Part shown: in pieces, positions 5,284-29,250 of the stretch
How the letters are laid out: the number at the start of each line of letters is the position of its first letter
Numbering within the stretch: position 1 is the first letter of the stretch
Source of the DNA: Spirosoma endbachense
GTDB taxonomy: Bacteria; Bacteroidota; Bacteroidia; Cytophagales; Spirosomataceae
Length of the DNA: 64,000 bases
Direction: 5' to 3'
Assembly (NCBI RefSeq): GCF_010233585.1
Contig: NZ_CP045997.1
Coordinates: forward strand, 1,949,749-2,013,748
Notes under the pieces: generated by a model
Told to the model about the DNA's origin: nothing
What the model saw: only the letters and a program-made list of their open reading frames with translations
The model's database searches: none
Program-made: the position numbers and the translations under genes

Positions 5284-5290
5284 ATGTTAA

Positions 5291-5507: not shown

Positions 5508-6170
5508 ATGGCCGCATTTTTTCGTAGTTCAGTCAATAAGGTCGCCGTGCAGCCATCATTCAGCCAGTTTCAACAGGACGAACAGGCATTTTATGAAGCA
5601 CTTCGGGCCAACGATCAACAAGCCTGGGACTATCTGATGATTCAGGTTCACAATCAGTTTGTTGTTCCGCAATCCCGTCAGAATTATGACTATGATACGT
5701 TAATTTCAGCCTATACCGAAGGGCTGGCTGTTGTTAAAGACAACATTTTAAGCGGTCGTTTTACGCACGAGAAAGCCAAAGTCACAACCTATGCGCATAG
5801 CGTTTGCCGGTTTACACTACTTAATCTGTATGACAAAGACAAACGTCGGCAGGAAGTATCGCCGTTTCAGGAGCAATCAGCAGATGAGTCAGAAGAAAGT
5901 TCGTCGGCAGTTCGTGATGAAGCGGTCGACTGGCTCCTTCAGACAGATATCGACGATCATAGCTGGGCGCTTGAGCCACTCAAACTCGCTATGTCTGGCC
6001 TGAAAGATCGTTGTCAGACCATTTTGCGCCTGTTTTATATTGACGAAGTTCCTGACCGCGAAGCCGCCATTCAACTCAATATCAACGAAGCTAATCTACG
6101 CCAGCAACGTCGCAACTGCGTCATGGGGCTTCGACAGTCCTTTAACCAACTAAAAAACTCGTATTTATAA
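5508..6170 (+). CDS. ECF-like sigma-70 family RNA polymerase sigma factor
   Basis: A 220-residue cytoplasmic protein. Residues ~25-110 form a region-2-like helical block (EAFYEALRANDQQAWDYL start, ending in VCRFTLLNLYDKDKRR), and residues ~160-215 form region 4 with the LKDRCQTILRLFYIDEVPDREAA helix-turn-helix pattern. Region 3 is absent, as in ECF sigma factors. The acidic linker between them (DESEESSS) is longer than usual. It opens a thirteen-gene block and its stop codon TAA overlaps the ATG of the next gene (TAATG), so translation is coupled to the anti-sigma-like partner. It probably directs transcription of this same block, but no target promoter can be proved from sequence. Confidence 0.88.
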   Translation: MAAFFRSSVNKVAVQPSFSQFQQDEQAFYEALRANDQQAWDYLMIQVHNQFVVPQSRQNYDYDTLISAYTEGLAVVKDNILSGRFTHEKAKVTTYAHSVCRFTLLNLYDKDKRRQEVSPFQEQSADESEESSSAVRDEAVDWLLQTDIDDHSWALEPLKLAMSGLKDRCQTILRLFYIDEVPDREAAIQLNINEANLRQQRRNCVMGLRQSFNQLKNSYL

Positions 6171-6916
6171 TGTCTATTTCTCAATCTGATTTCGAACGGG
6201 CTGAAGATTATATCGCAGGTCGGCTATCGGCTGGTGAGAAGGCACAGTTCGAACGTGAGCTAACCAGCAACGGCGAATTATCCCGCGAAGTTACCCGTTT
6301 GAAAGCGATGCAGAGTGGCCTTCGTCGTATGAATTATCGCGACGAAATAGCGGCCCGCCATGCTGAATTGTTACTTCGAGGAGACATAAAACCCACTCAT
6401 ACCGAAATGGGCAAGGTGGTTCCTTTTGGCTCCACACGGCCAATGTGGCAGTATCTGGCCATTGCAGCCAGCGTCCTGTTGATACTCGGATTTGGCTGGT
6501 TTTTCATGCAGGATCGATTCATGGCCCCATCACCCGCCGACATAGCAGCCCGATATATGGAGCCAGACTTGCGGCTTGACCCGACTACCCGCGATGGTGA
6601 GCCTTTACTTACGGCACCCGGTCCAGATCAGGTAAGCCGTCTGCAGGCCATCGCCCGCGATACGTCGGCTATCCGGGCCGGATTCACCTTATTGCAGAAA
6701 AACGAACCGGCTCAGGCAATAGCGTTACTGCAACCAGCCCGCAACTGTCCGCTACCCGACTGGCAGGCCAATGCCCGCTATTTACTGGCCCTCGGCTATC
6801 TGCAAACAGGTCAGGTAGATCTGGCAAAAGCAGAGCTCGGCACACTTCGTAAAACAACCTATTTTGGCAATCAGGCTGAGCAGTTACTCCATGAACTTTC
6901 AGCGAGTCAACCCTAA
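6170..6916 (+). CDS. Membrane anti-sigma-factor-like protein with periplasmic repeat region
   Basis: A 248-residue protein. The N-terminal ~55 residues (AEDYIAGRLSAGEKAQFERE) match the short acidic helical segment seen in RskA-type and Bacteroidota anti-sigma proteins, where it binds the sigma factor. A single transmembrane helix lies at about residues 100-117 (AIAASVLLILGFGWFF). The C-terminal ~120 residues are helical with alanine/leucine spacing like tetratricopeptide repeats (ALLQPARN, ARYLLALGYLQTGQVDLAKAEL), and would lie in the periplasm. No zinc-binding HxxxCxxC is present. The one-base overlap with the sigma gene supports a sigma/anti-sigma pair. The periplasmic part could sense an envelope signal or partner proteins from the same operon. 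Confidence 0.75.
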   Translation: MSISQSDFERAEDYIAGRLSAGEKAQFERELTSNGELSREVTRLKAMQSGLRRMNYRDEIAARHAELLLRGDIKPTHTEMGKVVPFGSTRPMWQYLAIAASVLLILGFGWFFMQDRFMAPSPADIAARYMEPDLRLDPTTRDGEPLLTAPGPDQVSRLQAIARDTSAIRAGFTLLQKNEPAQAIALLQPARNCPLPDWQANARYLLALGYLQTGQVDLAKAELGTLRKTTYFGNQAEQLLHELSASQP

Positions 6917-6946
6917 TCATTCGGCTCGATAAACCAGACAGATCGT

Positions 6947-8041
6947 ATGATCAAACTTCTCACTAGTCTGCTCATAACCTTAGTTAGCCAGGTAGCTTAT
7001 TCGCAAACGTTCCATGCCTTGATCGTAGCGGATACGCAGGCAGCTGACGTCGGCCCCGGTTGCCAGAAGGATGTTGCGGCCATGACAACCACTTTCAAGG
7101 CCATTGCCTCTGGAATTGGTTATCCTTTAAATCTGGTTGTATTGAGCGATTCGGGCTTCAGGCGGCCCAGCATTGAGCAACGGCTTCACAACCTGCACAT
7201 TGGACCAAAGGATGTTGCCTTTCTCTATTACACAGGTCATGGACACAATCTTGCCGGACGCACCGATCCATTTCCCTTGCTCAGTGTTGAACCCGGCAAC
7301 GACCCCTCTCTGCGATCACTTCATGATTCGCTACGGGCAAAACTTGCCCGGCTCACGATCACAATGGCCGATGCCTGCAATATTGTACTACCCGCCGGAA
7401 CACGCGGTCTGATGATCAACCCTATGTTGAAAGGCGGAACGGTAGAAGATGATATCAACCGGGTGCTGGCGAATTTATTTCTGGATCAGACCGGCGATGT
7501 ACTTATTGCGGCCTGCCAGCCCCATCAGTCTGCCTGCATGCTTAGCGATCAGGGAAGTCATTACACACGGTCATGGGAACAGGCCCTGTCGGTGCTGACA
7601 ACGACCCGCTCCCGACTAAGTTGGATTGATTTATTACTCGATGCTCAGGCTCGGGTAGACAGGCTTGCCCGACCCGATAGTTCGCACCAAACGTCGATTT
7701 ATGAGATTAATCTGAAACCTGTAAAGCAACAGTTACCACCCGACGCGCATTTTACGGCGATTAGCCAATACCTCAATACGCTGACAGACGAGCGACTGAC
7801 CTACGCCGAACGAGCCCTGCAACGACAAAAAGCCACTCAGTATTTCAACGCAGATGCCCGCGTAACGATCTATCAAAACGATACATCGGTCGGTGAATAT
7901 GCCCTCAACGATATGCTTAAACGACTGACCCTTAATGCCGTAAAAATCGGGCAGGTTAATTTTATTGAAAAACGATCGAAGCGAACGCCAAACGGAAAAC
8001 TATACCAAACGATTGCCATTCAGGAAGTATGGTCGAATTAA
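6947..8041 (+). CDS. Secreted caspase-like (C14) cysteine peptidase
   Basis: A 364-residue protein with a signal peptide ending VAYSQ. The caspase fold is shown by the first strand HALIVADTQ, the catalytic His98 in YYTGHGHN and the catalytic Cys144 in MADACN, with usual spacing between them. The first strand has VADTQ where metacaspases have IGxxxY, and a GPGCQKD segment where the DA helix usually reads NDA. The ~150 C-terminal residues have no recognised domain. It lies 30 bases after the anti-sigma-like gene. Caspase-like peptidases cut after Arg/Lys or Asp in a few substrates; an exported one could process the neighbouring secreted proteins or the anti-sigma domain. This is inference. Confidence 0.82.
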   Translation: MIKLLTSLLITLVSQVAYSQTFHALIVADTQAADVGPGCQKDVAAMTTTFKAIASGIGYPLNLVVLSDSGFRRPSIEQRLHNLHIGPKDVAFLYYTGHGHNLAGRTDPFPLLSVEPGNDPSLRSLHDSLRAKLARLTITMADACNIVLPAGTRGLMINPMLKGGTVEDDINRVLANLFLDQTGDVLIAACQPHQSACMLSDQGSHYTRSWEQALSVLTTTRSRLSWIDLLLDAQARVDRLARPDSSHQTSIYEINLKPVKQQLPPDAHFTAISQYLNTLTDERLTYAERALQRQKATQYFNADARVTIYQNDTSVGEYALNDMLKRLTLNAVKIGQVNFIEKRSKRTPNGKLYQTIAIQEVWSN

Positions 8042-8108
8042 ATCGCTATATTCTTTCACAAAGCTCCATTACCCACTATATACCAGTCTGTAAGCTCCTC
8101 TTGCCGTA

Positions 8109-8708
8109 ATGAAGTTGCTTTCCGTTCATATCCTCACATTGTTTACTTGCCTGTGGCTCTGGCTGTCGGGTGGTCTGCCTGATCCGTGCCATGCCCAGGT
8201 ACGGCTGACAAATTCCGGTCGGCCCCAGGCGACAGCCATGCCCACTGTCCGACTACTAAAACTACCGCTGACCCAAAAAATCGATAGCATTCTGCATCAC
8301 ATACGAACATATTCGCAGATCCCGGCAAACCACCAGGAACGATACGCCCGCGAACTAACCGCTTATTTTGCTCCATCTGGCTATATTTCAGTTCATCAGC
8401 CGGGGCAGCCAGACGCCCGTCTATCGGTAAATGATTACCTTGCACAGTTTGGCAATCGGTCGGCAGCGGTTCAGTTTAAAGGTGCCGAAGTCGTGTATTA
8501 TGGCCAGTCGATTAAAACCGCAGCGGGCGACTGGCAAACGATGGTAACCACCTATCGGAATGCGACAACCTTTACCGGAAACAAGCCACAGGCCTCCGAC
8601 ATTGCTACCGTCATGACACCCGTGGGAACAGCTCCGCTTACAACGAATTATTGGCAGATTTTTACTCTATACCTCACCATTCCTAAAGCTGGCTCAACCC
8701 GACAGTAG
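8109..8708 (+). CDS. Secreted protein of unknown function (possible NTF2-like fold)
   Basis: A 199-residue protein with a hydrophobic signal segment (residues 1-30, ending PCHAQ). The mature part has a helix (ERYARELTAYFAPSG), then short strands including LSVNDYLAQFG and VVYYGQSI and a C-terminal strand block (NYWQIFTLYLTI). The order helix, then x(V/I)x-x-YL segment, then strands recurs in the proteins at 10332-10934 and 11925-13460, which suggests a shared small alpha+beta domain of the NTF2/SnoaL kind. I recognise no catalytic residues. It sits between the caspase and the papain-like peptidase genes, 67 and 18 bases away. Confidence 0.7.
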   Translation: MKLLSVHILTLFTCLWLWLSGGLPDPCHAQVRLTNSGRPQATAMPTVRLLKLPLTQKIDSILHHIRTYSQIPANHQERYARELTAYFAPSGYISVHQPGQPDARLSVNDYLAQFGNRSAAVQFKGAEVVYYGQSIKTAAGDWQTMVTTYRNATTFTGNKPQASDIATVMTPVGTAPLTTNYWQIFTLYLTIPKAGSTRQ

Positions 8709-8726
8709 GCAGCACCGCCCCTCGTA

Positions 8727-10325
8727 ATGAAAACTCTCCTCTGGTTTACGATCTTGCTTTCGGCACAATGGGTTTGGGCACAGGCTCCAGCCGACCTGGT
8801 GAATTCGGGCTTACGTTTCGATGATGAAGCCTACCTGCGTGTCGAACAAAAGCCCGACAATGTGATCTATAAGGCTCCACTTCCCAGAGCAATTTCCTAC
8901 GAAAAATACTTGCCAGACATTGAACGGCAGGGCGACTATGGCACTTGTGTGGCGTTTACCTGTGCGTATTATACCCGAACGGCTATCGAAGCCATTCAGC
9001 GAAACCTGACGACTAAACCGCAGATCAATCAGACCCGATTTTCACCAACCTACCTTTATTCCCGACTCAAGTTACCGAACGACGTGACCTGCCAGCAGGG
9101 CGGAACAATGGATGAAGGCTTATTGGCGCTCAAAAATTACGGAGCTCCATTCTGGTCCAGTCTCCCCTATCCACAATGCATCAGGAATGTTAAACCCTAT
9201 GACTCTGAAGCTTCGCAGTTTCGGATTCGTCATTTTGAACGGATTTTTGACTTTGCCACTATGTTCCGCGTGGTTCGCCAGAACAATAATCTCGAGTCGG
9301 TTGTCAATGCGAATATACAGAACATCAAACGGGCGCTGGCCGGTGGCTATCCGGTTCCCATCGGCATGATGATTCCTTTGTCATTTCAGGCTGTTTCGAC
9401 GGATACCTGGACGCCCGCTCCGTCTGATGTCGACGATTTATACCAGGAAATCAGATCCGGCTTTAAACGCCGTAAATTATATGGACATGCCCTCACGGTT
9501 GTTGGCTACGACGATAGCCGCCAGGCTTTTCGAGTTGTCAATAGCTGGGGGACACGCTGGGCCGACAATGGTTTGTGCTGGATAAAATACCGGGACTTTG
9601 TCTTGTTTACGCGCTATGCGTTCCGGGTGTATCCGATGGAACAACCCACGGCAAAACTAACCAAAGTGACACCCATTATTGCTAAAACTAATACCAGGCC
9701 ACAATCTCCTACTGCTCCTAAACGATCACCAGTGCCAACCACGCAACCCGACAAATCGGTAACGATGCAGGCCAGCGTGGAAATGCGGCTGGTAGACGGC
9801 TCCGACATGCCTGCACGGCGGTTGATGAGCCGGGGTTCGACCGTTGGCGACGATACAAACGACGAAATTGGTGCCTACAAACTTGTTAATGGCTACGCAT
9901 CCGGAACACGGTTCAAACTGACGGTCAATAACGACAAAGCGGCTTATGTCTACGTGATCGGAACCGATCAGAGCATGAAACTTACACGGTTATTCCCTTA
10001 TGCCGATAGCCTGAGTGCCATGATCGATGCGAAGGAGTCGGCGGTGTTACCGGGCCCAACCAAACACATTCGGCTCGATAATAATCCGGGACAGGAATAT
10101 TATCTGGTCCTGTTTGCGGATAAACCGCTCGATATGAGTGCCCTCATAACCAGAATGAGTGCTATAGGTGGCAGTTTATCGCATAAAATTACGCAAACAC
10201 TCGGCGATCAGTTGATGGACTGGCACACGATGAACTACGATCCAGAACAAATTACATTCAGTACTGCTACTGACCCCATTGGCAAAGTAGTTCCCGTGCT
10301 CATTAGCCTCGACCATAAACCGTAA
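8727..10325 (+). CDS. Secreted papain-family (C1) cysteine peptidase with C-terminal DUF4384 domain
   Basis: A 532-residue protein with signal peptide ending VWAQA. The papain catalytic set is visible: Gln68 and Cys74 in RQGDYGTCVAF, His254 in YGHALTVVGYDD, and Asn272 in VNSWGTRWADNG. No inhibitory propeptide of usual length precedes the domain. After a Pro/Thr-rich linker (residues ~310-345), the last ~170 residues match DUF4384: GTRFKLTVNNDKAAYVYVIG, then LTRLFPY and EYYLVLFADKPLD. DUF4384 is a beta-rich domain often joined to kinases or caspases in bacteria. The same domain occurs in the protein at 11925-13460. Gap to the next gene is only 6 bases, so strongly operonic. Confidence 0.88.
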   Translation: MKTLLWFTILLSAQWVWAQAPADLVNSGLRFDDEAYLRVEQKPDNVIYKAPLPRAISYEKYLPDIERQGDYGTCVAFTCAYYTRTAIEAIQRNLTTKPQINQTRFSPTYLYSRLKLPNDVTCQQGGTMDEGLLALKNYGAPFWSSLPYPQCIRNVKPYDSEASQFRIRHFERIFDFATMFRVVRQNNNLESVVNANIQNIKRALAGGYPVPIGMMIPLSFQAVSTDTWTPAPSDVDDLYQEIRSGFKRRKLYGHALTVVGYDDSRQAFRVVNSWGTRWADNGLCWIKYRDFVLFTRYAFRVYPMEQPTAKLTKVTPIIAKTNTRPQSPTAPKRSPVPTTQPDKSVTMQASVEMRLVDGSDMPARRLMSRGSTVGDDTNDEIGAYKLVNGYASGTRFKLTVNNDKAAYVYVIGTDQSMKLTRLFPYADSLSAMIDAKESAVLPGPTKHIRLDNNPGQEYYLVLFADKPLDMSALITRMSAIGGSLSHKITQTLGDQLMDWHTMNYDPEQITFSTATDPIGKVVPVLISLDHKP

Positions 10326-10331
10326 CCCACC

Positions 10332-10934
10332 ATGAAACCATTCCTAGCCACACTACTTCTATTACTTTTCGCCACATCGCTGAGTTGGTCACAGGATCGG
10401 CTCAAGCAATCGTATGTCGACGATGACCTGTCTGAGAAAGAAGCCGCCGATCTGAAAAACCGGACTAAACAACGCATTGCTGAACTTCAGAATTACCTCA
10501 ACATCATACCCGACTCCAAGCGTTCGACGGCCGAACGCGAAGATGCCGTTGAACAGGCACTCCTGTTGTTTACCAACGAAGCGAACATGGAAATAATAGA
10601 CCGAAAAGGGAAGCGAACGATGCCCGTTAAACGCTATTTCCGGAACCTGCTCGACATCAGCACAGGCTATTACACCCATATCGACATTACGCAGTACGAT
10701 GTAGCCTATGTGAGCGATTTCCGGCTTGGCACCGATGGCAACTACCATAGCACCGGCACGTATTACCAGGATTTTAAAGGTTTTCGGGGCGATCAGGCCG
10801 TTTATCATGACCGTACCAAGAAAGATGTCAGTATCCGGGCCGATGCCCGATTGAATGAATACAACGAGAAAAAATGGACGCTGTTGCTTGGCAACGTGAA
10901 GGCCAGAAGCCTGGAAGTTATACCCGCTAACTAA
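10332..10934 (+). CDS. Secreted protein of unknown function (possible NTF2-like fold)
   Basis: A 200-residue protein with signal peptide ending LSWSQ. The mature part starts with two charged helices (residues ~25-80), then MPVKRYFRNLL followed by strands and an aromatic-rich part (GTYYQDFKGF), and ends with KKWTLLLGNVKARSLEVI. The segment (L/M)P(V/I)K.Y(F/L).N.L also occurs in the protein at 11925-13460 (LPIKQYLVNVL), and a related one in 8109-8708, so these look like divergent copies of one domain. No enzyme motif is recognised. It starts 6 bases after the papain-like gene. Confidence 0.7.
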   Translation: MKPFLATLLLLLFATSLSWSQDRLKQSYVDDDLSEKEAADLKNRTKQRIAELQNYLNIIPDSKRSTAEREDAVEQALLLFTNEANMEIIDRKGKRTMPVKRYFRNLLDISTGYYTHIDITQYDVAYVSDFRLGTDGNYHSTGTYYQDFKGFRGDQAVYHDRTKKDVSIRADARLNEYNEKKWTLLLGNVKARSLEVIPAN

Positions 10935-10979
10935 TAATCAGCCAGTAACGGCCAACAGCTAAATCTTTTCTTCTTCTCT

Positions 10980-11843
10980 ATGCGTCGCTCTCGTTTACTT
11001 CTCTTCATCGCGCTATGGATTGGAATTTTCGGCCAGAAAGGCTGGTCGCAATCCTTGCCGATCCAGACTACACAGCCGGTGAAGCAGATCGAGGAGTTTC
11101 TGAAACGGTTTTATTATGAACAGACTCCCGACCAGCGCCCGCTCACAACCGACTCGTTAAGAGCCCTGTATCCACGAAGGGCGTATCTGCTTAGTCTGTT
11201 TGATGCTAAAGATAGCCGTCGAACAACGCAGCCCAGCTACAAACAGGCTATCGATACGTTCGTTACCGAGCTTTCGGAAGCGGAAGAAAAGCCTGACGAC
11301 CTGTATGCAAACGTATTGGCCGAAACACCCTTTCGGGCCAGCTATCGGGGTAAGGCCGAAACACTGACCGTTTTTTGGCAAATGACGCACATAGGTCGCG
11401 CGCAGGGTTGGCGCATGGTAGGATTGGACGCTCCGTTTCTAACTGCCAGTACCGACACCTCAAAAGCGCCACTATCCGGCGACACAACACAACGGGCAAC
11501 CCGTCCGCTTACACTGTCGCCAAATACGCACGAAACCAGTTTTCTGGAATTCCACCGGGTCATCAAACAGGGTCATGATTTACGGTTACTCCTGAGTGAC
11601 TCGCTGAGTCAGACAGGCGTTGGGCGAACCTTTATTGAGGCTGTCCGCCAGCGCGAACTCCGCCTGATCGAAACCGAACGTGTTTCACTGTTTATCCCGA
11701 CTAAATCTGGCTGGATTGTTCGGGTTGACGAATTCTCACGCGACAACGAAAACTCGGGCTGGCTCATCAGCGATTTATACGGCACCCGGTCGCCATCGCG
11801 GCTTCCACCCGAGCTGGCAACTCTTGTACGGATTCGCCCCTAA
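10980..11843 (+). CDS. Secreted protein of unknown function
   Basis: A 287-residue protein with signal peptide ending KGWSQ. The mature region begins with a helix (QIEEFLKRFYYEQ), has a central block ending in a strand pair with a conserved-looking WQMTHIGRAQGWRM, then a Ser/Thr-rich linker (~155-180) and a second helical/strand domain up to the end (LLLSDSLSQTGVGRTFIEA, ending in ELATLVRIRP). The arrangement of first domain resembles the neighbouring NTF2-like candidates in size but the sequence resemblance is weak. No catalytic motif seen. Spacing to neighbours is 45 and 81 bases, so it stays within the operon. Confidence 0.68.
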   Translation: MRRSRLLLFIALWIGIFGQKGWSQSLPIQTTQPVKQIEEFLKRFYYEQTPDQRPLTTDSLRALYPRRAYLLSLFDAKDSRRTTQPSYKQAIDTFVTELSEAEEKPDDLYANVLAETPFRASYRGKAETLTVFWQMTHIGRAQGWRMVGLDAPFLTASTDTSKAPLSGDTTQRATRPLTLSPNTHETSFLEFHRVIKQGHDLRLLLSDSLSQTGVGRTFIEAVRQRELRLIETERVSLFIPTKSGWIVRVDEFSRDNENSGWLISDLYGTRSPSRLPPELATLVRIRP

Positions 11844-11924
11844 CCAAACGGGTGAGTCTGGTTCGTTGATCAACCAGTATACTATAGAACGTTCGCCCGA
11901 AAGCATCTAACAGCTTCATCTTTC

Positions 11925-13460
11925 ATGGTCAGATATTGGTTTTTATTGTGTTTTTTACTGCTCACAGGGCTGGCTTCAGGGCAGCCTCAACCGGCACAAC
12001 CCAAAATCGAAGCACCCACATTCCGGCCTTCGGATGAGGTATACATTGCCCGTCAGGCCAGGCGCTTTCTGGAAACTGCCTACTACTTCAGGCTGAATGA
12101 ATTAGGTCGCCCGGCCAGCGATCTATCGGCGGCCGAAAAACGGCAGATTATGGCCGGTCTGCTTGATCGTTGTTTTGGTAATGGTAACCCGTTGGTCGTC
12201 AATGACCTGGACCCCTACCAGCGGGAGAGTTCTGAATTACCGATCAAACAGTATCTGGTTAATGTGTTGACCTTCTATCGTGCCGGCGATCTTGCTATCG
12301 GTAATGACCTGACCGATGGGCTACATTATGGCCGGATTCAGGCAAACGCAGCCGGAAAACTTTTCATGCCGTTGTATGTTTCTGAAACCCTGACCGGTAC
12401 TTACGACAATAACCGGGCACCCAAAAAACGGCATGAATTACGGCAGGTTAAAGAATTCAGGCTGGAGTTTACGTTCGACAACAGCAATTGTCAGCGGGTA
12501 TTCGATAATCTGAAAATCGGTGGTATTCGGCGTCTTGCCGCTATCCCATCAGCCTCCCGGCTATTGACCGGCCGCGAAGACCTGGCTCAAATGCGGGCGC
12601 AGGAGCAGGATCTCAATATGGTAGTCGACTGTTTGACCGAAGGAATTCGACGGCAATTACCCGCCGAGACGAAGCATATTCTGATCGACAATTTTACGTT
12701 TGAAAATCGGGGAATCAGCACCGAATTCGGTGAAGCGCTGACGCAAACGCTCCGTCAACAGCTCCAGCAACGAACGGGTGCGGTTGTCGAGATACTCAAA
12801 AGCGACAATCAGACTGCCGATTATACAGTGCGGGGAAGTTTCGCAACGACGGGCGATCAGGTGGAGATCCGGGCAAAATTGTTTAACAAACAAGCGGCTT
12901 TCGAGCGCGATCTGGTATCCAGTGACCTGCCCGTCCGCTGGGTACGGCAAAACCAATTGACGTTCGAGTCGCCGAAAGATGCCAATAGCCTGCGCATGGA
13001 AGCAGCCGTAAAGACAGTAATGGCCCCGCAATCGGTCGGTGATTTTTCCATTGAATTACAAACGAACCGGGGGCGTCAGGGCGTTACCTATCATGAGGGC
13101 GAACGGATGACCATTAAGCTGAAAGTAAGTAAACCCGCTACCGTTCGCCTGATTTATGTACTGGAAGACGGTACGCAAACGTTACTATTCGACAATTACC
13201 GGATTGATGGGCAGGCCGTGGGGCAGTTCATCGATGTACCGGGTGACTTTGAATGCTCTAGCCCATTTGGACAGGAATTTCTACTAGCCTTCGCCACAAC
13301 TGATACGTTTGCTCCCCTCGAGACGAAGAAGCAGAACAGCTTCAATGTCTTGACGGGTGAACTGACCAATACTGTTCTCCGTACGGTACGGGGTTTACGG
13401 GCAAATGGCATCATTGTGGCTGATAAGGTGCAGATTACGACACGCCCAGTGCGGTTTTAA
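11925..13460 (+). CDS. Secreted multidomain protein: NTF2-like, FlgO/TolB-like and DUF4384 parts
   Basis: A 511-residue protein with signal peptide ending LASGQ. Residues ~35-200 resemble the neighbouring secreted proteins (LPIKQYLVNVL segment). Residues ~235-330 read ILIDNFTFENRGISTEFGEA, then LRQQLQQRTGAVVEIL and YTVRGSFATTGDQVEIRAKLFN; this is the pattern of FlgO/TolB N-terminal-type domains that bind or scaffold at the cell surface. Residues ~360-490 match DUF4384 (EGERMTIKLKVSKPATVRLIYV, then QEFLLAFATTDTF). It therefore shares a C-terminal domain with the papain-like protein three genes upstream. The next gene starts 10 bases later. A structural role in a surface assembly is inferred. 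Confidence 0.72.
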   Translation: MVRYWFLLCFLLLTGLASGQPQPAQPKIEAPTFRPSDEVYIARQARRFLETAYYFRLNELGRPASDLSAAEKRQIMAGLLDRCFGNGNPLVVNDLDPYQRESSELPIKQYLVNVLTFYRAGDLAIGNDLTDGLHYGRIQANAAGKLFMPLYVSETLTGTYDNNRAPKKRHELRQVKEFRLEFTFDNSNCQRVFDNLKIGGIRRLAAIPSASRLLTGREDLAQMRAQEQDLNMVVDCLTEGIRRQLPAETKHILIDNFTFENRGISTEFGEALTQTLRQQLQQRTGAVVEILKSDNQTADYTVRGSFATTGDQVEIRAKLFNKQAAFERDLVSSDLPVRWVRQNQLTFESPKDANSLRMEAAVKTVMAPQSVGDFSIELQTNRGRQGVTYHEGERMTIKLKVSKPATVRLIYVLEDGTQTLLFDNYRIDGQAVGQFIDVPGDFECSSPFGQEFLLAFATTDTFAPLETKKQNSFNVLTGELTNTVLRTVRGLRANGIIVADKVQITTRPVRF

Positions 13461-13470
13461 CCCAGACCAA

Positions 13471-15957: not shown

Positions 15958-15961
15958 CTCT

Positions 15962-17203
15962 ATGACAACACGCACCAACTGGATTCGCTGGGTAGCCGCC
16001 CTGTTGTGGCTCGCGGGTCTGTGGCTATGCCTGCACCAGCCAGCTGCTATTTCTCAATCAGGGAAAACCAGCAGCGATACGCTAAGCAAGACCACGAATT
16101 ACCTGCTGACCGACTCAACAGGCTCAACCTTGTTGATTCGTGGCCCTGAACAAATAACCCGACTAACGGTAACCGACAGTGCTCTCGTGCTGAACAAAGA
16201 ACCGTTGCTATTTCGGGCCGACTCCGTGAAAGGAAGTTCGGTGAAAACGCCCCGTGATCTTGCTCTCTGGCGGAGCCAGTTCAGATTTCGACTTGGCGCT
16301 GGCGCAACTACCGACGCGGCTCGCTGGGAAGTATCCCGCCAAAAACTGGCAACATTTTGCTCCACTGGGCTTACACCTGGCCCAGCCAGCGATAAAGCTG
16401 ATCAGGCTTTATTTGAACGGTTTATTACGTTTATCGCTGATCGACAAAAAACCCAGCAAACAACGCTGATTCTCTACAACAACCTTATTCTGGATCGACT
16501 GACCACGCAGAATCTATCGCCCGATCAAGCCGTGCAACTATCTCCTTCGGAAGTTACCGACATACCAGCCAGCGCACCTTCGAGCGAGCTGCCAGGTATC
16601 GGTTTGCTGGCTTTGGGCGGACTATTATGGGGAATTGCGGCATTTATGAAACGAGACAAAGTCGCTGAACCTGCACAAGTGCCCCGACAGGAAACACCCA
16701 TTGTTCAGGAGCAGACCAGGGCCATTATAGCGCCCACCCAATCTGAAACTCCAGCGAATGTCTCTCCTGGTTTACCGGAGCAATCTCCGGCAAACCCACC
16801 CGTCCCTTCTGATTGGCAAGCTGACCAGACCGCGTTGAAGCAATACATGATGGCTTTCTACCAACGCTACGGGCAATTTTACGACGATCTGCAAACACTC
16901 TCAACAGAGTTGCCGGAGGCCGAAAAGCAACAAATCCGTCGCCAGTTAGTCGAAATGGCACTGCACGCCCATGCATTTGTGGAGGGGTATCAGCATTTAC
17001 CGTTAACACGTCTGACGGAGGTTCCCAATGTCCGATTATTGGTCCAACCGACTAATCGACCTGCTGCGCCAGACCTGACCATTGACCCATACAAAACGGC
17101 CAAACGCTATCGGGTACTGCTATCAATTTTGCAGGAGATGCAACTGGGAGAGCTGGAAAATGTACTGCTTCAGGATTTACACGTACCAAAGAGTCTGCTT
17201 TAA
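15962..17203 (+). CDS. Two-helix membrane protein of unknown function
   Basis: The ATG at 15962 (4 bases after the previous stop) gives 413 residues; an in-frame ATG at 15944 would overlap the upstream gene by 14 bases. An N-terminal helix (WVAALLWLAGLWLCL) acts as signal or anchor, and a second helix lies near residues 206-224 (GIGLLALGGLLWGIAAF) followed by a basic KRDK, giving a periplasmic domain of ~170 residues and a cytoplasmic tail of ~190. The tail has a Pro-rich linker and a helical end domain (YQRYGQFYDDLQTL onward). This topology would let it bridge the cytoplasmic ATPase encoded just before and the membrane polymerase encoded just after. No known family is recognised. Confidence 0.72.
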   Translation: MTTRTNWIRWVAALLWLAGLWLCLHQPAAISQSGKTSSDTLSKTTNYLLTDSTGSTLLIRGPEQITRLTVTDSALVLNKEPLLFRADSVKGSSVKTPRDLALWRSQFRFRLGAGATTDAARWEVSRQKLATFCSTGLTPGPASDKADQALFERFITFIADRQKTQQTTLILYNNLILDRLTTQNLSPDQAVQLSPSEVTDIPASAPSSELPGIGLLALGGLLWGIAAFMKRDKVAEPAQVPRQETPIVQEQTRAIIAPTQSETPANVSPGLPEQSPANPPVPSDWQADQTALKQYMMAFYQRYGQFYDDLQTLSTELPEAEKQQIRRQLVEMALHAHAFVEGYQHLPLTRLTEVPNVRLLVQPTNRPAAPDLTIDPYKTAKRYRVLLSILQEMQLGELENVLLQDLHVPKSLL

Positions 17204-17224
17204 ACACCTTTTCGATTGCCATTC

Positions 17225-20200
17225 ATGGATACTGCACTGGCTTTCCTGTTCAACCTGAATACCTTTCTGCTTTTGTGTGTAGTGACTGTTCTGGGAATTT
17301 TATGGCGCGGTCCATTCCAGAAAACACCCACCTACATGCTTCTGGCGGTACTCGGCGTTGCTTCGGTCCTTACCATACGAAGCTACGTGTCGGCCCCCGA
17401 GCAGATTTATACGAATGCCAGCCACCATGTTCTCGAACACATTGGCATACAGTTTCAAACGCAGTTGACACTGGCCGATGGGCAGCATCCAAACCGGGCG
17501 TTCTGGGATGCTAAACCCGGAAACCTCACACTCCAGGCCAATACATCGGGCACGACCAAACTGGTGGGTCGGGGCTTTTGCGAGCCCATATTTATCGGCA
17601 ACAACGACTTGTATACCCTGGCAAATCCGGTTTTCGAGAAGCAGGTATCCAGACAATTGACCATTGGTTATGGTCAAAATCGATCCCTATCCCTGAATGT
17701 AGAGCCCATCGACGATGACCAGACTCGCTACCTCCTGCAACTCAGCAATGGTACGTCAACAAGCCCCTGGGACACCCTTCTCTTTAACCGACGCATCAAA
17801 ACCGGCCTTTTGCTCGGAACACTCCTGAGCAGAGTACCCATCGACCGACCGGGTTTAGCACAGGCTCAAACCATGTTGGATAGCGCCTACCTGATTCGGG
17901 CCCAACTGGGTACAAAAGCGAACGAGGATAGTCCACTCTATCTGTTTCCATCGGCGGCTATGTTGCGGTCGGCAACATCACTACAAATCGATGGTGTCAC
18001 GATTGCGCTTAGTCGGCATCCCGAATTTACGGCTCCACTTGGCCCGGAGCAGTTGTTTTTCACCGGACTTAAGGTCAGCCGGACGCCACTCTACCGCGTT
18101 GGTGCCATTGGCCGTCAAATGGCGCTGTGGCTGGAAACGCCGGAGCGAATGTACCTAAAACCAACCGGCCCGACTGGTGAATCTCTTTTTCTGACCTCCT
18201 CTATCGACGATGTCATTAACAACGCATTACCGGCTGGGTATCAACTAGGAAAACTCCGGAACAGCCAGAATCGGCATCAATTTTCGGCCAGTTTATTTTA
18301 CGTAACCGGCCCTACAAGGCAGCCGATGCGATTTCGGGTTGTCAGTCAGGAACAAACGAACGCGCTGATCAACGAAAAACGCGCAGGCGACACCCTGTCT
18401 CTAAAAACAGCTACCCGTTCCGGCACACCGGCTAACCGGTGGCTCCTCCGTGTAACGGACCTAAAAGCAGTCAATCCACTTCAATTCTGGCATCTGGCTC
18501 TACTGGTTGCTCTGCTGGTAGTTGGTAGTTTAGCCTCCGTGTGGCTCACGCCGTATTCGCTTTATGGGCCAACCCGACAGCCGCTGCGCTTCATCAACAC
18601 CGAACTCATTGCGTATATACTCCTGCTGGCCTTCATGACGGTTCGAGGTATTTTACTCTGGCGGGTGGGTACGTTTCCACCCACTGATTCCTCTGCCAAT
18701 TTTGCCAACTTGAGCTGGAACTATTACACAGACACCATACTTGCTGTTTTGCTCTTTTTCGCGGTCATCTACGGGTGGAAACTCCGGGGCCAGGTGGTCA
18801 GTCAATGGATCAATCGGAACCTGGCCCAATGGCCTGATACGTTATCCGAAAAACCACTATTGGCGTACCTTCTCCCGATATTCGTCAATGTTGCTGCCGG
18901 ACCGATTGCGTGGCTGGAGCGGATTGCCAGTGTATTCCTCCCGTTGCTCGTCTACATGGTGGTGGATTACAACTGGCTCCGGCAGATTTACCGCAATGGG
19001 GATAGTTCGGTGAATTCTTCGGCATACCAGCGCCTTTCGGCCATCAACTGGTTAAGCTGCTTTGGCCTGTTAGGGATGCTCGACGCTGGATTCGCCATTA
19101 TTTTCGGGCTATTCAGTCTGCTCTACATGTGGCTGCGGTTGTTCACCTTTGAAGACCACCAGTTACCCGGCGCTTCACGCTTCGGGCAATACCGTTATCT
19201 GTTCAGTTGGTTTGGACCGCCAACCGCCATTTTATTGTACTTATATGCCCTGCCATGGCTTATCGAACTTACTTTTCGTGCGCCTGGGCCACTGCTAACG
19301 ATTGTCATCCTTACTTTTGGTGTGATCGTTCTTCGGTTTCTATGGCCTCAGGAGAAACGTCCTACGTGGGGTCTCCCGCTGGTCGCTGGTCTAATGGCCG
19401 TGTTAATTGGGAGCTTGTTTCTCTTCCCGAATGCGGTCGATCGTATGCTGGAAAAAGAAGCCCGTATCCGCTATCGGGCGGGCATATTGATTCATTCGGC
19501 CGACGAACTGATGCGTCAGGAGCAGAATCGCTTCAACAACGGAGCTAATCAAAAACTCCTTGAAGCCGCCCAGAATCAATGGCTGGTCAATTACTTCTAC
19601 GACAAAGGCAACTTCAGTCTGACCCACTACGCCCGACTGGTTCCACACATTAATACCGGCTCCACCTATCAGACACAACTTGCCGATCTGGTCGCCGTTC
19701 GTTATGTGATTGCCGAGCATAGCGAGTGGATCATCTGGATGCTTCTGGCACTGCTTCTGGGCTGGTTGATCAGTACCGTTAGTGGCGGGAAACTCAGTCC
19801 TGCCTCAAAAATGCGGGCCCAATTGGTCTGTCTGCTGTTCAGTATCGCGTTTGCCGTCTGGATGACCGCTACGAACCGGATGGTATTTGTGGGGCAGGAC
19901 TTTCCCCTATTAAGCCTGAATAGCCGCCTGACATTGCTTCTGTCTCTGTCTATCTTTGTGGCCGTTATTGTACTGGGCACACCACTTTCCTCTTCGCAGC
20001 CCTTACCGGCGCGCTATGAATTCAGTCGGTTTGGCCGACGCTCGTTTGGGGTTCTGATGGCCGGGTTAGTATTGATTGCTACCCTGTCGTATTACCTGTT
20101 TCCATTTGACCGAAATACACGCCAGTTCGATTTATCGCAAACCATCAGCGATCTGCAAACGGCTTTTGGTGAGCTTAATGGCCCTTTCCAGACGTTTCAG

Positions 20201-22504
20201 CAGGAACAAAATAACCCAAGAGGTTCGACTCGACAACTACTACGCCAGTTCGACACCTATCTGAAAGGGCCCGGACATGCAGCCGCCGATACGCTCTTTG
20301 CCCGACAGCCACTACTTCGGAGCGCGTATGCAGCCTTTCTGGCCCAACCAGCCAGAAATCGATCACAGAATCTGATTCACCTCCGTCGCTCCAATGAGGG
20401 CACATGGGAGTTTGCGGTCAATCCATTTTATTATAACGTGAGCAGTCCTGATGCTGATCAGGATGGCTATCAGGGCCATGTACTGGCTCGATCTGAATTG
20501 CCCAGTGTACTATTAGTCAATCGATCTAACAGCGACCAGTCGTTACGAATTTCCCGTAACAGCCCGGTTGCCGACTGGTTCAGCGCTCCCGGCAGCCCGT
20601 TCAGTAGCAGCAATCTGAACCTGCGGTTAAGCACAATACCCGCCAGTTGGACAACCGACTCACTACCCTTGCTGGTGCTGACCACTACCCAGGGCGACGA
20701 ACACACAACCCGGTCGCGGTATCTGGTTAAACAGGGGAGCCATGTACTGGAATCGTCGCGATCAGACTTTGCTCTGCGACTACAACCCGGCGATCTGCTC
20801 CAGTTTATGCCCGAAGGAAGTGGTCGGCTGATCAACTATGAAGTTCGGCAAAACGACCATCATTTTCTGGCACGCAATGTCTGGCTAAATGGTCGCCCGC
20901 AGTACGTGTATCCCCTGCGTGACCGTTTTTTATGGTCATACCACTTTACGAACCTGGTTAAGTCAGCCTACGACCGGGATGCAGAACGGCAACATCAGCC
21001 TGTTCGAACTACGCTCGATCGACCGCTAACCGAGAAGGTGACAGAATTAGTGCGTGATTTTTATGGCTCACGCCCACTCAGAACCCCAGCCGAACGTGCT
21101 AAAGCCTTCAGCATGGTGGTGCTCGATGAACGCGGTCAGATTCGCCTGATGGCTGATCATAAACGCGGTAATACAACAGCTATCGATCCAAACCGCATGG
21201 CCGATTTCCAGCCAATTCTCGACGCACTTTACCTTGATCCGCAACGCTATGATGAACGGATGCTGTTCGGCAACAAGTGCCTCATGCGGATGGAAAACGG
21301 TCCTGCCTCAACCTTCAAGCCGGTTTTATACGCGGCCACAACATCGCAGTTCAATCTGGGCTGGGAAAATCTACAGCTTGGCGCGGTAGATAGTCAAACA
21401 ATGGAGGCCATCGCCCGCCCAAACGGCGATGATTATACACTGCGCTATTTTGGTGGCAAAGGACTCCGGTTCACCGTTGGGCGAAACAATCTGACAGGTC
21501 ATAACAATCATTACTACCTGAGCCATTCAACAAATACCTACAATTCGCTGGTACTGCTTCTTGGCTCACTGGATGCGGCTCAGGCAAGGCGAACCAAACA
21601 GGCGTTTGTCAACAGTTCGTCCGATACTCCTTTTTTTGTGAAAGGAGTATCGGAGGATGCGAAGCGAAACTTCCCGCTAGTAAGCTATGGTGGACAAACC
21701 TATCGCATTCGTCAGTTTCCATCCTGGGATAATCCAAACTCGTTGCTGGGGCGTGGGCTTTGGGAGAATTTCGATTTGCCGATTAATTCAGCGCAGGTTG
21801 TCAGCGAAAATGGTCAGCATAGCCGCAACCTCGCTCCGGGCCTCAATGATGCCCTGATTGATGCGTCGCGCAGTTCGTTTAAACTCTGGAGTTTCCCCGA
21901 ACCCTCCCATCTGTATTTGATCGACCGACGAACAAGTCTGCAAAATGCCATTGCCCAGTGCGCATCGGGTGCCTATCCAATCACAACAACACCCCTAAAA
22001 ATGGCTGAAATGGCGGGTAAACTCTTCTCGTTTAACAACGCCTACAAAGCACATATTCTGGCCGACCAACCGCCTGTCACACAGACGGGATTTAGTGTCG
22101 ATGCGTCGTGGATAGCGCCGGATCAACTCAGTACATTTTACGCCCAGAATCTCTTTGCGGGCATGCATGAAGCCATTCAGGAAGGTACCGCTCAATGGCT
22201 GCGACCGCTGCGTGATGCTTATGACGGTCAATATTCGTTTTATGCCAAAACCGGCACGATCAGCGGGAACCGGGCAGCCGGCAGCGCACGCGATAAACAC
22301 CTCTTGCTGGTTGTTAGTCAGGAACCTTTGCACGATCGGCAATTGCACCCCTCCGATTTACGAAACAATCGTTTCCGGGTCATTTATGTGTCGTTTTACA
22401 GTCATTCGCCCGGTGGTGCCTGGGATACGGCCACCGCAGAGCTAATCCGTAAACTTATCAAAGAAGTCATCGATAGCCCACAATCGTCAGCCAGCCGCCT
22501 ATGA
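17225..22504 (+). CDS. Giant SEDS-like / penicillin-binding transpeptidase fusion protein
   Basis: A 1,759-residue membrane protein; ATG at 17225 is preferred to TTG at 17216. Two N-terminal helices (~1-52) are followed by ~370 extracytoplasmic residues. Residues ~420-970 hold about ten to thirteen helices; the last ones carry YVIAEHSEW followed by a helix and VGQDFPLLSLNSRLTLL, which resemble the EE.G and GLTLPLISYGGSS segments of FtsW/RodA. After a ~350-residue periplasmic part, the transpeptidase domain shows TTLDRPL, the SxxK motif at Ser1362-Lys1365 (ASTFKP), SxN at 1435-1437 (STN), and KTG at 1675-1677. These are the complete catalytic motifs of a class B-type penicillin-binding protein. 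A single chain would join glycan polymerase and cross-linking enzyme. The SEDS part is less certain than the transpeptidase. Confidence 0.82.
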   Translation: MDTALAFLFNLNTFLLLCVVTVLGILWRGPFQKTPTYMLLAVLGVASVLTIRSYVSAPEQIYTNASHHVLEHIGIQFQTQLTLADGQHPNRAFWDAKPGNLTLQANTSGTTKLVGRGFCEPIFIGNNDLYTLANPVFEKQVSRQLTIGYGQNRSLSLNVEPIDDDQTRYLLQLSNGTSTSPWDTLLFNRRIKTGLLLGTLLSRVPIDRPGLAQAQTMLDSAYLIRAQLGTKANEDSPLYLFPSAAMLRSATSLQIDGVTIALSRHPEFTAPLGPEQLFFTGLKVSRTPLYRVGAIGRQMALWLETPERMYLKPTGPTGESLFLTSSIDDVINNALPAGYQLGKLRNSQNRHQFSASLFYVTGPTRQPMRFRVVSQEQTNALINEKRAGDTLSLKTATRSGTPANRWLLRVTDLKAVNPLQFWHLALLVALLVVGSLASVWLTPYSLYGPTRQPLRFINTELIAYILLLAFMTVRGILLWRVGTFPPTDSSANFANLSWNYYTDTILAVLLFFAVIYGWKLRGQVVSQWINRNLAQWPDTLSEKPLLAYLLPIFVNVAAGPIAWLERIASVFLPLLVYMVVDYNWLRQIYRNGDSSVNSSAYQRLSAINWLSCFGLLGMLDAGFAIIFGLFSLLYMWLRLFTFEDHQLPGASRFGQYRYLFSWFGPPTAILLYLYALPWLIELTFRAPGPLLTIVILTFGVIVLRFLWPQEKRPTWGLPLVAGLMAVLIGSLFLFPNAVDRMLEKEARIRYRAGILIHSADELMRQEQNRFNNGANQKLLEAAQNQWLVNYFYDKGNFSLTHYARLVPHINTGSTYQTQLADLVAVRYVIAEHSEWIIWMLLALLLGWLISTVSGGKLSPASKMRAQLVCLLFSIAFAVWMTATNRMVFVGQDFPLLSLNSRLTLLLSLSIFVAVIVLGTPLSSSQPLPARYEFSRFGRRSFGVLMAGLVLIATLSYYLFPFDRNTRQFDLSQTISDLQTAFGELNGPFQTFQQEQNNPRGSTRQLLRQFDTYLKGPGHAAADTLFARQPLLRSAYAAFLAQPARNRSQNLIHLRRSNEGTWEFAVNPFYYNVSSPDADQDGYQGHVLARSELPSVLLVNRSNSDQSLRISRNSPVADWFSAPGSPFSSSNLNLRLSTIPASWTTDSLPLLVLTTTQGDEHTTRSRYLVKQGSHVLESSRSDFALRLQPGDLLQFMPEGSGRLINYEVRQNDHHFLARNVWLNGRPQYVYPLRDRFLWSYHFTNLVKSAYDRDAERQHQPVRTTLDRPLTEKVTELVRDFYGSRPLRTPAERAKAFSMVVLDERGQIRLMADHKRGNTTAIDPNRMADFQPILDALYLDPQRYDERMLFGNKCLMRMENGPASTFKPVLYAATTSQFNLGWENLQLGAVDSQTMEAIARPNGDDYTLRYFGGKGLRFTVGRNNLTGHNNHYYLSHSTNTYNSLVLLLGSLDAAQARRTKQAFVNSSSDTPFFVKGVSEDAKRNFPLVSYGGQTYRIRQFPSWDNPNSLLGRGLWENFDLPINSAQVVSENGQHSRNLAPGLNDALIDASRSSFKLWSFPEPSHLYLIDRRTSLQNAIAQCASGAYPITTTPLKMAEMAGKLFSFNNAYKAHILADQPPVTQTGFSVDASWIAPDQLSTFYAQNLFAGMHEAIQEGTAQWLRPLRDAYDGQYSFYAKTGTISGNRAAGSARDKHLLLVVSQEPLHDRQLHPSDLRNNRFRVIYVSFYSHSPGGAWDTATAELIRKLIKEVIDSPQSSASRL

Positions 22505-23034
22505 AACTTCGCCGATCCATACCCAACGAGCAACCAGCAGTGACTCCACTGCCTTCGTCCCCTCGGGCAACCCCGGTTCGCCCGAAGCCAGCCGGTTTAT
22601 TGTTCAGTATCACAACGTTTCTGGTGCTGACAATAGCTATTGTCTGGCTGAATGGCCCTTCCGACGAGGCCCCTATCCCCGCACAAACGCTCCAGCCGAA
22701 CCGAATGGACACAGATCGGCATCTGGTTTGGGTCCGGCTCGATTCGTTGCGAAACCGGCTTGATCTGTTGACGGGGGATAATGGTTTATCGATTCGTTCC
22801 GGAACCGAACGGCTGTACATTCAGGCCAGCAATCGAAAACAACTTGAGCGGTATTTGCTCAATGGCCTGGCGCTGACCCGATTTACGCAGGCAGCCAATA
22901 GCCCGGTACGGGTCGAATCGGCTGGCGATGGTTTCTCGCTACCCATTCAGCAACGACAGGGCATTACCTACGTACAGGTCCCGACCGACATCATTAGTAG
23001 TTTACTCCGCAGCACCGAATCATTAGCCGAATGA
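22501..23034 (+). CDS. Single-pass membrane protein of unknown function
   Basis: A 177-residue protein whose ATG overlaps the stop codon of the giant gene (ATGA), and whose own stop overlaps the next ATG in the same way, so all three are translationally coupled. A Pro-rich cytoplasmic N-terminus (~1-33) precedes one helix (GLLFSITTFLVLTIAIVWL), leaving ~125 residues outside. The outer part has a strand-rich pattern (DRHLVWVRLDSL, ERLYIQASNRKQLERYLLNGL, GITYVQVPTDII) with no recognised motif. Topology is like FtsL/FtsB-type partners of SEDS-PBP pairs in being a small bitopic protein, but there is no coiled-coil or sequence resemblance. Confidence 0.7.
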   Translation: MKLRRSIPNEQPAVTPLPSSPRATPVRPKPAGLLFSITTFLVLTIAIVWLNGPSDEAPIPAQTLQPNRMDTDRHLVWVRLDSLRNRLDLLTGDNGLSIRSGTERLYIQASNRKQLERYLLNGLALTRFTQAANSPVRVESAGDGFSLPIQQRQGITYVQVPTDIISSLLRSTESLAE

Positions 23035-24362
23035 AGCCGCTTACTATTCTTTCAACGTTTTCGACCAACGAACTCCGGCCCGCTTACTTTGCCCGACACG
23101 TTACGCCCGATGGAACAACCGTTCTGGTTGGTATGGCGGGCAAGTTTAGATCTTTTGCCGACGAAGCTGCACGCACGCACAGTAAGCTACTCAATTCCAG
23201 TCAATTTGAATCAATACGTCAGCAAGCATTAGCGTCATTCCGCGAGCGATTTGCCCAGCAGAAACACCAGCCTTTTAGCGGTAGTGACGATGATATTCTG
23301 CGGAGTTTCGGGCAGTTAATCATTTCCCCTACTGGAGCAGTAAACGCATTTGCCTGGGGACGTTTCCAGTTTTCGTCGGTTCAGAATGGCTCCGGACGAA
23401 CCGACCTACCGGCCGTTCTGAATCCGGGGCAGTACATCATTGGCGATGCCGAAGGAGCAGGTATTACCACTACCGTTGCGCAAAATCTGGCGAAGGTGAC
23501 CAGTCTGGATTCATTGACGCAGGCTACCGGCTCACTGGCTGACCCTTTCATGCTTGTCACCGTTGAAGTGGCTACGGAATCGTCTGCCCCTTTGCCGGTT
23601 GAAACCAAGCCGGCTGCTCCGCCGATTCAGGTGTCTGTACCCGAGCCTGTGCCAGTCGAAGTGCTGCCTACGCCAGCCCCGATGGTTGCTCAAACTCCTC
23701 GTCCGCCAGCCCAAACGCAGGTCCCTGTGAAACCCGCCCCAGAGCCGGTATCAGCATTCCCTTGGAAAGCCATTTCACTTTTTTTGCTAACCTTTATCAT
23801 TGTGGGAAGTATTGGCGGTGGTTATTATTGGTGGAAAATTCGACCAAAACAGAGAGCCGTACATCATGCGCAACAACCGAAGGATAGCGCTGAGTATGTT
23901 ATAACCTCCGAAAATGGATCAGATTTCGACGAGCCGGAAGACAGCACAGCGATTCTTGAAAACCCCGAAGAGTCAGCCCAGCCACTCAATGAATCTCCTC
24001 CGCCCAGTGAAGCTGAGCAGTTACTTCAGCAATACCGGAATCAGCCCGATTCGCTGATGTATCTGATTCGTGCTGCCGAGCAGGTGGGGGATGTACCAGA
24101 TGCCGATCGTCAGCAGGCGTTACGGAGCGAAATCGACCGCGAGCGGGCGTATCGCTTTAACGAACAGACCCAGACTGCCCGAACCACTTACGATCAGGCT
24201 GTGCTCTACCTGCTGGCTGACCAAAAAGCAAAAGCGGGCACAGCTTTACAGGCAGCCCAGCGCGCCTATGAAATGGCTCTGCTGCTCCAGCCCGACAAAG
24301 CCGACTCAGTAAGGCCACAGCTAGAGCAGGTTCGCGAAAAAATCAATTCATTGAACGAGTAA
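23031..24362 (+). CDS. Membrane protein with possible degenerate PP2C-like N-domain and helical C-domain
   Basis: A 443-residue protein. Residues ~1-185 form a globular domain (DGTTVLVGMAGKFRSFADEAA, then QYIIGDAEGAGITTTVAQ and DPFMLVTVEV) whose strand/helix order recalls PP2C phosphatases, but the metal-binding aspartates of active enzymes (ED, DGMGG) are not present. This comparison is weak. A Pro/Val-rich linker (~190-240) leads to a transmembrane helix (~245-265), an acidic stretch, then a helical C-terminal region (~325-440) with tetratricopeptide-like spacing (KAGTALQAAQRAYEMALLLQP). No signal peptide, so the N-domain is probably cytoplasmic and the repeats outside. It is the last gene before the shared terminator. 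Confidence 0.7.
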   Translation: MKPLTILSTFSTNELRPAYFARHVTPDGTTVLVGMAGKFRSFADEAARTHSKLLNSSQFESIRQQALASFRERFAQQKHQPFSGSDDDILRSFGQLIISPTGAVNAFAWGRFQFSSVQNGSGRTDLPAVLNPGQYIIGDAEGAGITTTVAQNLAKVTSLDSLTQATGSLADPFMLVTVEVATESSAPLPVETKPAAPPIQVSVPEPVPVEVLPTPAPMVAQTPRPPAQTQVPVKPAPEPVSAFPWKAISLFLLTFIIVGSIGGGYYWWKIRPKQRAVHHAQQPKDSAEYVITSENGSDFDEPEDSTAILENPEESAQPLNESPPPSEAEQLLQQYRNQPDSLMYLIRAAEQVGDVPDADRQQALRSEIDRERAYRFNEQTQTARTTYDQAVLYLLADQKAKAGTALQAAQRAYEMALLLQPDKADSVRPQLEQVREKINSLNE

Positions 24363-29183: not shown

Positions 29184-29250
29184 CGATTCGCGCTGACGAC
29201 TGAACAAGATTTTAATTAATGACCCATTTACCCAAATTCCTGTACTATAA

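Follow-up and report, generated by a model that had tools for sequence, protein, structure and literature searches.

A candidate accessory SEDS-transpeptidase synthase with an actin-fold ATPase partner in a sigma factor operon of Spirosoma endbachense

The 64,000-nucleotide stretch of the 10.3-Mb Spirosoma endbachense genome analyzed here (the window; contig NZ_CP045997.1) carries 13 open reading frames, g1 to g13, all on the plus strand at positions 5508-24362, between two hairpin terminators. The best overall explanation of this operon, which we hold with moderate confidence, is that it encodes an accessory peptidoglycan synthase consisting of a SEDS polymerase and a class B penicillin-binding protein (PBP), works with an ATPase partner, is under sigma factor control, and responds to the envelope. 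The initial annotation had proposed a dedicated module for envelope building or remodelling, and this central interpretation survived fold, profile, and synteny comparisons that were able to break it. Judged from sequence comparison, the conserved module is smaller than 13 genes and consists of the ATPase (g9), a g10-type membrane protein, the giant fusion protein g11, and a g12-type bitopic protein:

17225..22504, plus strand: g11, giant SEDS-like polymerase/PBP transpeptidase fusion, 1759 aa
18542..19993, plus strand: predicted SEDS (RodA) fold of g11, residues 440-923, with the invariant Asp821
20993..22492, plus strand: putative PBP-type transpeptidase of g11, residues 1257-1756, assigned by motifs and profile match
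13471..15957, plus strand: g9, predicted actin-fold (ASKHA) ATPase, 828 aa
15944..17203, plus strand: g10, membrane protein between the ATPase and the giant, start uncertain
22501..23034, plus strand: g12, small bitopic protein, core member

The giant protein and its ATPase partner

The predicted structure of g11 adopts the SEDS transmembrane fold, and the sole strong fold matches of the whole model are to RodA of the RodA-PBP2 complex; in the same whole-model comparison, the N-terminal extracytoplasmic beta region had no strong fold match. In the alignment, Asp821 falls on the aspartate of the SDFIF motif in the SEDS profile, is invariant in 49 rows, and appears to occupy the position of RodA Asp262, the catalytic aspartate (PMC10449877, section 10); in PMC8765783, Asp297 of FtsW is given as the putative catalytic residue. 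Profile comparison of the g11 membrane part with 24 canonical SEDS proteins gave 77.5%, rising to 93.4% after the SEDS parts of six fusion proteins were added (all hhalign E-values reported here come from single comparisons and are thus equivalent to P-values). The controls comprised 20 polytopic families; 19 reached E = 0.064 or weaker, and the remaining one (E = 2.8e-23) is a true relative, the N-terminal half of a split giant. The transpeptidase motifs follow in the expected order, Ser1362-x-x-Lys1365, Ser1435-x-Asn1437, and Lys1675-Thr-Gly, with the S, K, S, N, and K columns invariant in 43 rows and T and G retained in at least 90%, and hhalign matched this region to PBPs of relatives over 339 columns (97.5%, E = 7.3e-12). 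Against sequences of solved structures, the transpeptidase profile reached PBP1B with E = 0.065, and the membrane half yielded nothing useful. A PF00905 (Transpeptidase) call was precomputed in 3 of 21 relatives, and g11 is not among the three PF01098 matches of its own genome. Together, fold, profile, and motifs make the predicted wall-synthase chemistry of g11 well supported, and the SEDS-like/PBP fusion recognized in the initial annotation stands on this evidence and on synteny.

The model of g9, built from residue 2, is predicted to contain an actin-fold, Hsp70/MreB-like core at approximately residues 156-640. The Pfam scan of g9 gave no family-level match, and the MreB family PF06723 was not among its matches at E ≤ 1; the closest named protein match, from Spirosoma aureum, is 98% identical. 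When the g9 profile was compared with sequences of solved structures, the best match was a designed helical repeat protein (E = 3e-4), with MreB and DnaK appearing from E = 0.15. The initial annotation saw in g9 an actin-like ATPase that guides the synthase; the actin fold is borne out, and MreB-type and Hsp70-type functions are not separated by the fold comparison. Because g9 is no closer to MreB than to Hsp70, the actin-like guide is one of two possible readings. An MreB-family match of 850-870 aa in Taibaiella/Edaphocola proved, by inspection, to be a DnaK-like gene adjoining a DnaJ-like gene.

A search with two peptide patterns, covering one genome per species in 84,980 species and representing a lower bound, identified 77 named loci (L numbers below; some genomes give two loci) encoding g9 relatives, and 68 of these encode the giant. 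In five of the nine giant-less loci (L010, L011, L026, L059, and L077), the contig ends inside the ATPase gene or within 2.2 kb of it. The giant lies on the same strand as the ATPase, with the ATPase first, in 67 of the 68 loci, at a median distance of 1060 bases. Distance matrices of the two proteins from 61 loci were correlated at 0.971 (permutation maximum 0.228, n = 1000), which argues against independent inheritance and is compatible with plain vertical descent of both. The initial annotation would have been called into question had these genes not been kept together in relatives; given the linkage, a partnership between the ATPase and the giant appears well supported. In Phocaeicola, a pair of TerD genes and a gene for a CW_7-repeat protein come after the genes for the giant and the small partner (L019:13766-16089), and relatives of all three occur in two Prevotellaceae loci (L025 and L062). 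In L008, the ATPase (9998-12493) lacks a giant and precedes a large TPR-looking repeat protein (1364-aa gene), a possible alternative partner; L009 shows the same arrangement of an ATPase and a large repeat protein.

The C-terminal part of g10 matches same-position proteins of two other clades (E = 8e-9 and 1e-6). The 336-aa proteins between the ATPase and the giant in Chitinophagaceae-type loci were rejected as g10 equivalents (2.4%, no match), and a widening search that assigned g10-type proteins to 58 of 68 loci grew with each round, so its result was not used. A g12 homologue was found -88 to +182 bases from the end of the giant in 40 of the 68 giant loci.

The module is rare and additional to the canonical machinery. 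Within the family, a g9 relative turned up in 11 of the 222 genomes, and the giant is present in 3 of 36 Spirosoma genomes (4 of the 36 are under 90% complete), the same three that encode g9. The single g9 sequence matched in 2 of 296 Bacteroidota genomes; the g9 profile, with two candidates scored per genome, matched in 8 of 395. Two of these matches are clear, and six are short, with E = 3.5e-6 or weaker, one of the six in an 801-aa frame. MreB and canonical SEDS were present in all 16 genomes searched, and seven further PF00905 matches lie elsewhere in the window's genome, of which five fall in frames of 653-876 aa, so the module is an accessory one, added to the normal machinery.

The complete operon and its regulatory and exported genes

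The remaining genes and the borders of the operon are as follows:

5245..5323, plus strand: double-hairpin terminator preceding the operon, two stems, -43.0 kcal/mol, followed by a T run
5508..6170, plus strand: g1, sigma-70 family (extracytoplasmic function [ECF]-like) factor, TIGR02937 46.6 bits (cutoff 42.9)
6170..6916, plus strand: g2, anti-sigma-like membrane protein with a TPR-like C-terminus, NF052375 antisigma 39.6 of 100, below cutoff
6947..8041, plus strand: g3, exported caspase-like peptidase, PF00656 above cutoff, signal peptide by inspection
8109..8708, plus strand: g4, small exported protein, no Pfam match, signal peptide by inspection
8727..10325, plus strand: g5, exported papain-like peptidase with DUF4384, PF00112 and PF14326 above cutoff
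10332..10934, plus strand: g6, small exported protein, no Pfam match, signal peptide by inspection
10980..11843, plus strand: g7, small exported protein, no Pfam match, signal peptide by inspection
11925..13460, plus strand: g8, exported DUF4384 protein, PF14326 above cutoff, signal peptide by inspection
23031..24362, plus strand: g13, bitopic protein with homologues in L005, L006, and L007, no Pfam match
24375..24420: symmetric terminator, stem -26.5 kcal/mol, common to the operon and the convergent gene at 24436-25554

All 13 codirectional genes and both flanking hairpins described in the initial annotation are present, the hairpin energies being raw values. The gene spacing had been given as gaps of 4-81 bases with three overlaps; the overlaps (TAATG at g1/g2, ATGA at g11/g12 and g12/g13) were confirmed, the clear intergenic gaps are 6-81 bases, and three starts need moving. 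The g9 start moves to ATG 13471 (relatives begin with MYYLP), that of g11 to ATG 17225, and that of g10 probably to ATG 15944, which creates a 14-base overlap with g9 (ATG 15962 is the alternative). Transcription of g1-g13 as a single unit is plausible. A strict Bacteroidota promoter pattern had no match on the plus strand of the window, and a relaxed version, applied to 4001-25600, had two raw matches (13278 and 14820). A close Spirosoma relative has all 13 genes in matching order; because of this, and because the core recurs across Bacteroidota, the grouping of 13 genes is more than chance.

The gene contents described initially hold: g1 passes the TIGR02937 cutoff in the NCBIfam scan, which covered 10 of the 13 proteins, and g3, g5, and g8 pass Pfam cutoffs, with caspase, papain, and DUF4384 the only domains above cutoff in the 13 proteins. 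In addition, g1 shows a weak Sigma70_r4_2 match under the Pfam cutoff, and g2 has a weak TPR_19 match and one transmembrane segment by inspection. The His98/Cys144 dyad of g3 and the Cys74/His254/Asn272 triad of g5, which we take to be catalytic, are retained. Proposals that g13 is a degenerate PP2C (a match of only 21 columns) or corresponds to the protein of approximately 390-440 aa that comes next in other clades (15 columns) were unsupported.

In the Spirosomataceae-type loci L003-L007, papain/DUF4384 proteins occur in all five, and caspases, anti-sigma, and sigma factors in four each (the L004 contig has little sequence upstream), so that the sigma/anti-sigma pair and exported cysteine peptidases remain grouped with the giant and the ATPase in these relatives. 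Outside these loci, a phmmer search with 25 queries found none of the sigma, anti-sigma, papain, or caspase types at E 1e-4, a threshold that distant relatives could escape, and 40 comparisons of g4, g6, g7, and g8 with exported neighbours in other clades gave at most 1.9%. Thus, of the 13-gene module originally proposed, the ATPase, g10-type, giant, and g12-type core holds across Bacteroidota, and for the sigma and peptidase genes, relatives were found only in Spirosomataceae-type loci. In three of the latter, exported caspases that also carry an FGE-sulfatase-like or Sel1 domain lie inside or beside the core (L003:19714-21267, L004:12245-13828, and L006:13123-15399).

Elsewhere in the window, the convergent gene at 24436-25554 (minus strand) encodes a second, stronger caspase (PF00656, 102 bits), with four further matches in the same genome. 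Envelope genes also occur among the neighbours (4337-5227, 28368-31141, 33855-35180, and 57685-59943), encoding an SLT transglycosylase, MlaE/ABC/MlaD, a YkuD L,D-transpeptidase, and a Transgly (PF00912) domain protein.

Proposed mechanism and alternatives

In the mechanism that we propose, the divergent SEDS domain of g11, through Asp821, would polymerize lipid II, and the transpeptidase domain of the same polypeptide, through Ser1362, would cross-link the new strand. The cytosolic g9, a near-constant partner, most likely switches or positions g11 via the cytoplasmic part of g10, and g12, outside the membrane, may serve as a small activator. In canonical synthases, MreC or FtsL-type proteins have this activating role. 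The synthase probably acts in envelope repair or remodelling. In Spirosomataceae, the operon is probably switched on by the envelope state (wall damage, attack, or developmental change), because it sits with its own sigma/anti-sigma pair; the exported papain-like and caspase-like peptidases and DUF4384 proteins could process envelope proteins or release the anti-sigma factor. This regulation, trigger, and proteolysis are plausible.

Several observations weigh against this account. The transpeptidase part of g11 is assigned by motifs and profile; its PF00905 score is 14.8 bits, below the 22.1 cutoff, and PF01098 was not matched at E ≤ 1. A Foldseek search with the giant returned no significant match in the PDB (best E = 0.15; RodA row E = 1.7, probability 0.90). 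The giant is broken within the SEDS-like membrane region in L078 and L079, so not every giant is a single chain, and L008, L009, L030, and L046 have the ATPase and no giant in the fetched stretch, with no contig end to explain this. The putative partnership of the ATPase and the giant rests on gene linkage and co-divergence, and the g12-type protein was detected in no more than 40 of the 68 giant loci. The L005 sigma match is weak (17.5 bits versus the 24.1 Pfam cutoff), and the L006 sigma call depends on clustering with L005. Finally, the long ATPases of related genera carry a ribonuclease (RNase)-type HEPN extension that a plain wall synthase would not need.

These extensions bear on the most serious rival, an envelope-surveillance conflict system in which the giant senses or counters wall attack (phage lysis or wall hydrolases delivered by contact) and the ATPase passes the signal on to a growth-stopping HEPN RNase in some genera and to cysteine peptidases in Spirosoma. 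HEPN-type N-terminal extensions, Swt1-type where named, occur in the ATPases from Persicitalea, Runella, Dyadobacter, and their relatives, and the RNxxxH motif is found in five of seven aligned ATPases longer than 900 aa, the remaining two being without such an extension; the motif is also present in L005, L006, and L007. In these three loci (L005:4520-7513, L006:9440-12412, and L007:9440-12406), the extension is Swt1-type and HEPN-like, which suggests an RNase output of the ATPase in the respective genera. Fusions of Swt1-type HEPN domains to other ATPases are described in PMC3710099. The TerD gene pair close to the giant in L019, the caspases ending in an FGE-like or Sel1 domain at the C-terminus, the patchy presence in Spirosoma, and the ECF sigma-caspase neighbourhoods of described systems (PMC8195603) all fit this alternative. 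However, g9 itself has no HEPN domain, and both wall domains retain their catalytic residues, which would be unnecessary in a protein that only senses. Furthermore, a PADLOC-DB 2.0.0 scan of 10 of the 13 proteins (g4, g6, and g7 left out) gave no match for g9, g11, g12, or g13, E = 0.05 for g10, and E = 3e-4 for the g3 caspase. None of 58 pattern matches in viral contigs was confirmed as a relative and none was found in plasmids, so a mobile origin was rejected as well. On balance, we consider the conflict system unlikely. A machine for morphogenesis or development that gives special cells a curved, ring, or filament form rather than repairing damage seems still less probable: the combination of an ATPase with a SEDS-class B PBP synthase resembles Rod and divisome logic, and the fold similarity of g9 is at the MreB level, but 33 of the 36 Spirosoma genomes have no match and the module is present in scattered Bacteroidota groups. 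Synthesis or ligation of a different envelope polymer by the giant, with its transpeptidase-like domain acting on another substrate, is highly improbable given the RodA fold matches, the retained PBP motifs, and the CW_7 neighbour in L019, even though both g11 domains are very divergent, its beta region has no strong fold match, and SEDS-like folds are also known in O-antigen ligases.

Building on the accessory synthase, a bolder possibility, which we advance tentatively, is a third SEDS-class B PBP wall machine in Bacteroidota besides the elongasome and divisome. Polymerase and cross-linker would form one giant, an Hsp70-like ATPase, not MreB, FtsA, or FtsZ, would drive or switch it, and a chaperone-type nucleotide cycle would gate synthesis across the membrane; in Spirosomataceae, the machine would be tied to envelope damage via the dedicated sigma factor and cysteine peptidases. 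If so, family searches have overlooked a wall-synthesis machine in which a single polypeptide holds polymerase and cross-linker at a 1:1 ratio and the partner ATPase is none of MreB, FtsA, or FtsZ. Control of a SEDS-class B PBP synthase across the membrane by a cytosolic ATPase, and the reason for an extra wall synthase in bacteria with MreB, RodA, and FtsW, become testable in one system, which also links exported caspase-like and papain-like peptidases in Spirosomataceae, and TerD proteins elsewhere, to cell-wall synthesis.

Relationship to known systems

The initial annotation knew of no described system with this gene set, and none appeared in the titles or abstract openings among the matches listed from open PubMed Central. 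No terms for a SEDS-PBP fusion were found in PMC6207328, and the accessible text of PMC7159879, which concerns conflict systems, mentions neither ASKHA nor transpeptidase. The systems of PMC8195603 combine ECF sigma factors and caspases in one neighbourhood, as here; in contrast, the peptidases of the present operon are exported and accompanied by a wall synthase, and "transpeptidase" and "ASKHA" are absent from the accessible text of that article.

Among ASKHA proteins, g9 resembles Hsp70/Hsp110 and MreB in the actin-fold nucleotide-binding core and phosphate motifs and differs from them in an extra N-terminal beta region and in the strong linkage to the giant. Among the closest parallels are RodA-PBP2 and FtsW-FtsI (PDB 6pl6 and 8tj3), which g11 resembles in SEDS fold, catalytic Asp position, and transpeptidase motifs, and the Rod complex likewise has an actin-fold ATPase partner, MreB. 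Unlike these synthases, g11 forms one chain of 1759 aa, has a large extracytoplasmic beta region in its N-terminal part, falls below Pfam cutoffs, and has an ATPase partner of approximately 820 aa; no Pfam match to MreC, MreD, or RodZ was found among the 13 operon genes.

Other Spirosoma encode SEDS-PBP fusions of 1321-1398 aa (L120-L125; L122:2407-13037). As in g11, their SEDS part precedes the transpeptidase within one polypeptide, and profile comparison matches them to g11 in each of the two domains (E = 1.5e-5 and 2.7e-4). One of these six stretches also has relatives of g1 and g2, a sigma/anti-sigma pair that is convergent with the canonical fusion and close to it (L120:391-1897). None of the six stretches contains a g9 relative. 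Unlike g11, the L122 fusion passes Pfam cutoffs in both domains, and its neighbours encode an FHA protein, a PP2C phosphatase, and two Ser/Thr kinases, a setting that recalls the actinobacterial rodA-pbpA-kinase clusters. The kinase-controlled fusion of L122 and the ATPase-controlled g11 may be versions of one idea.

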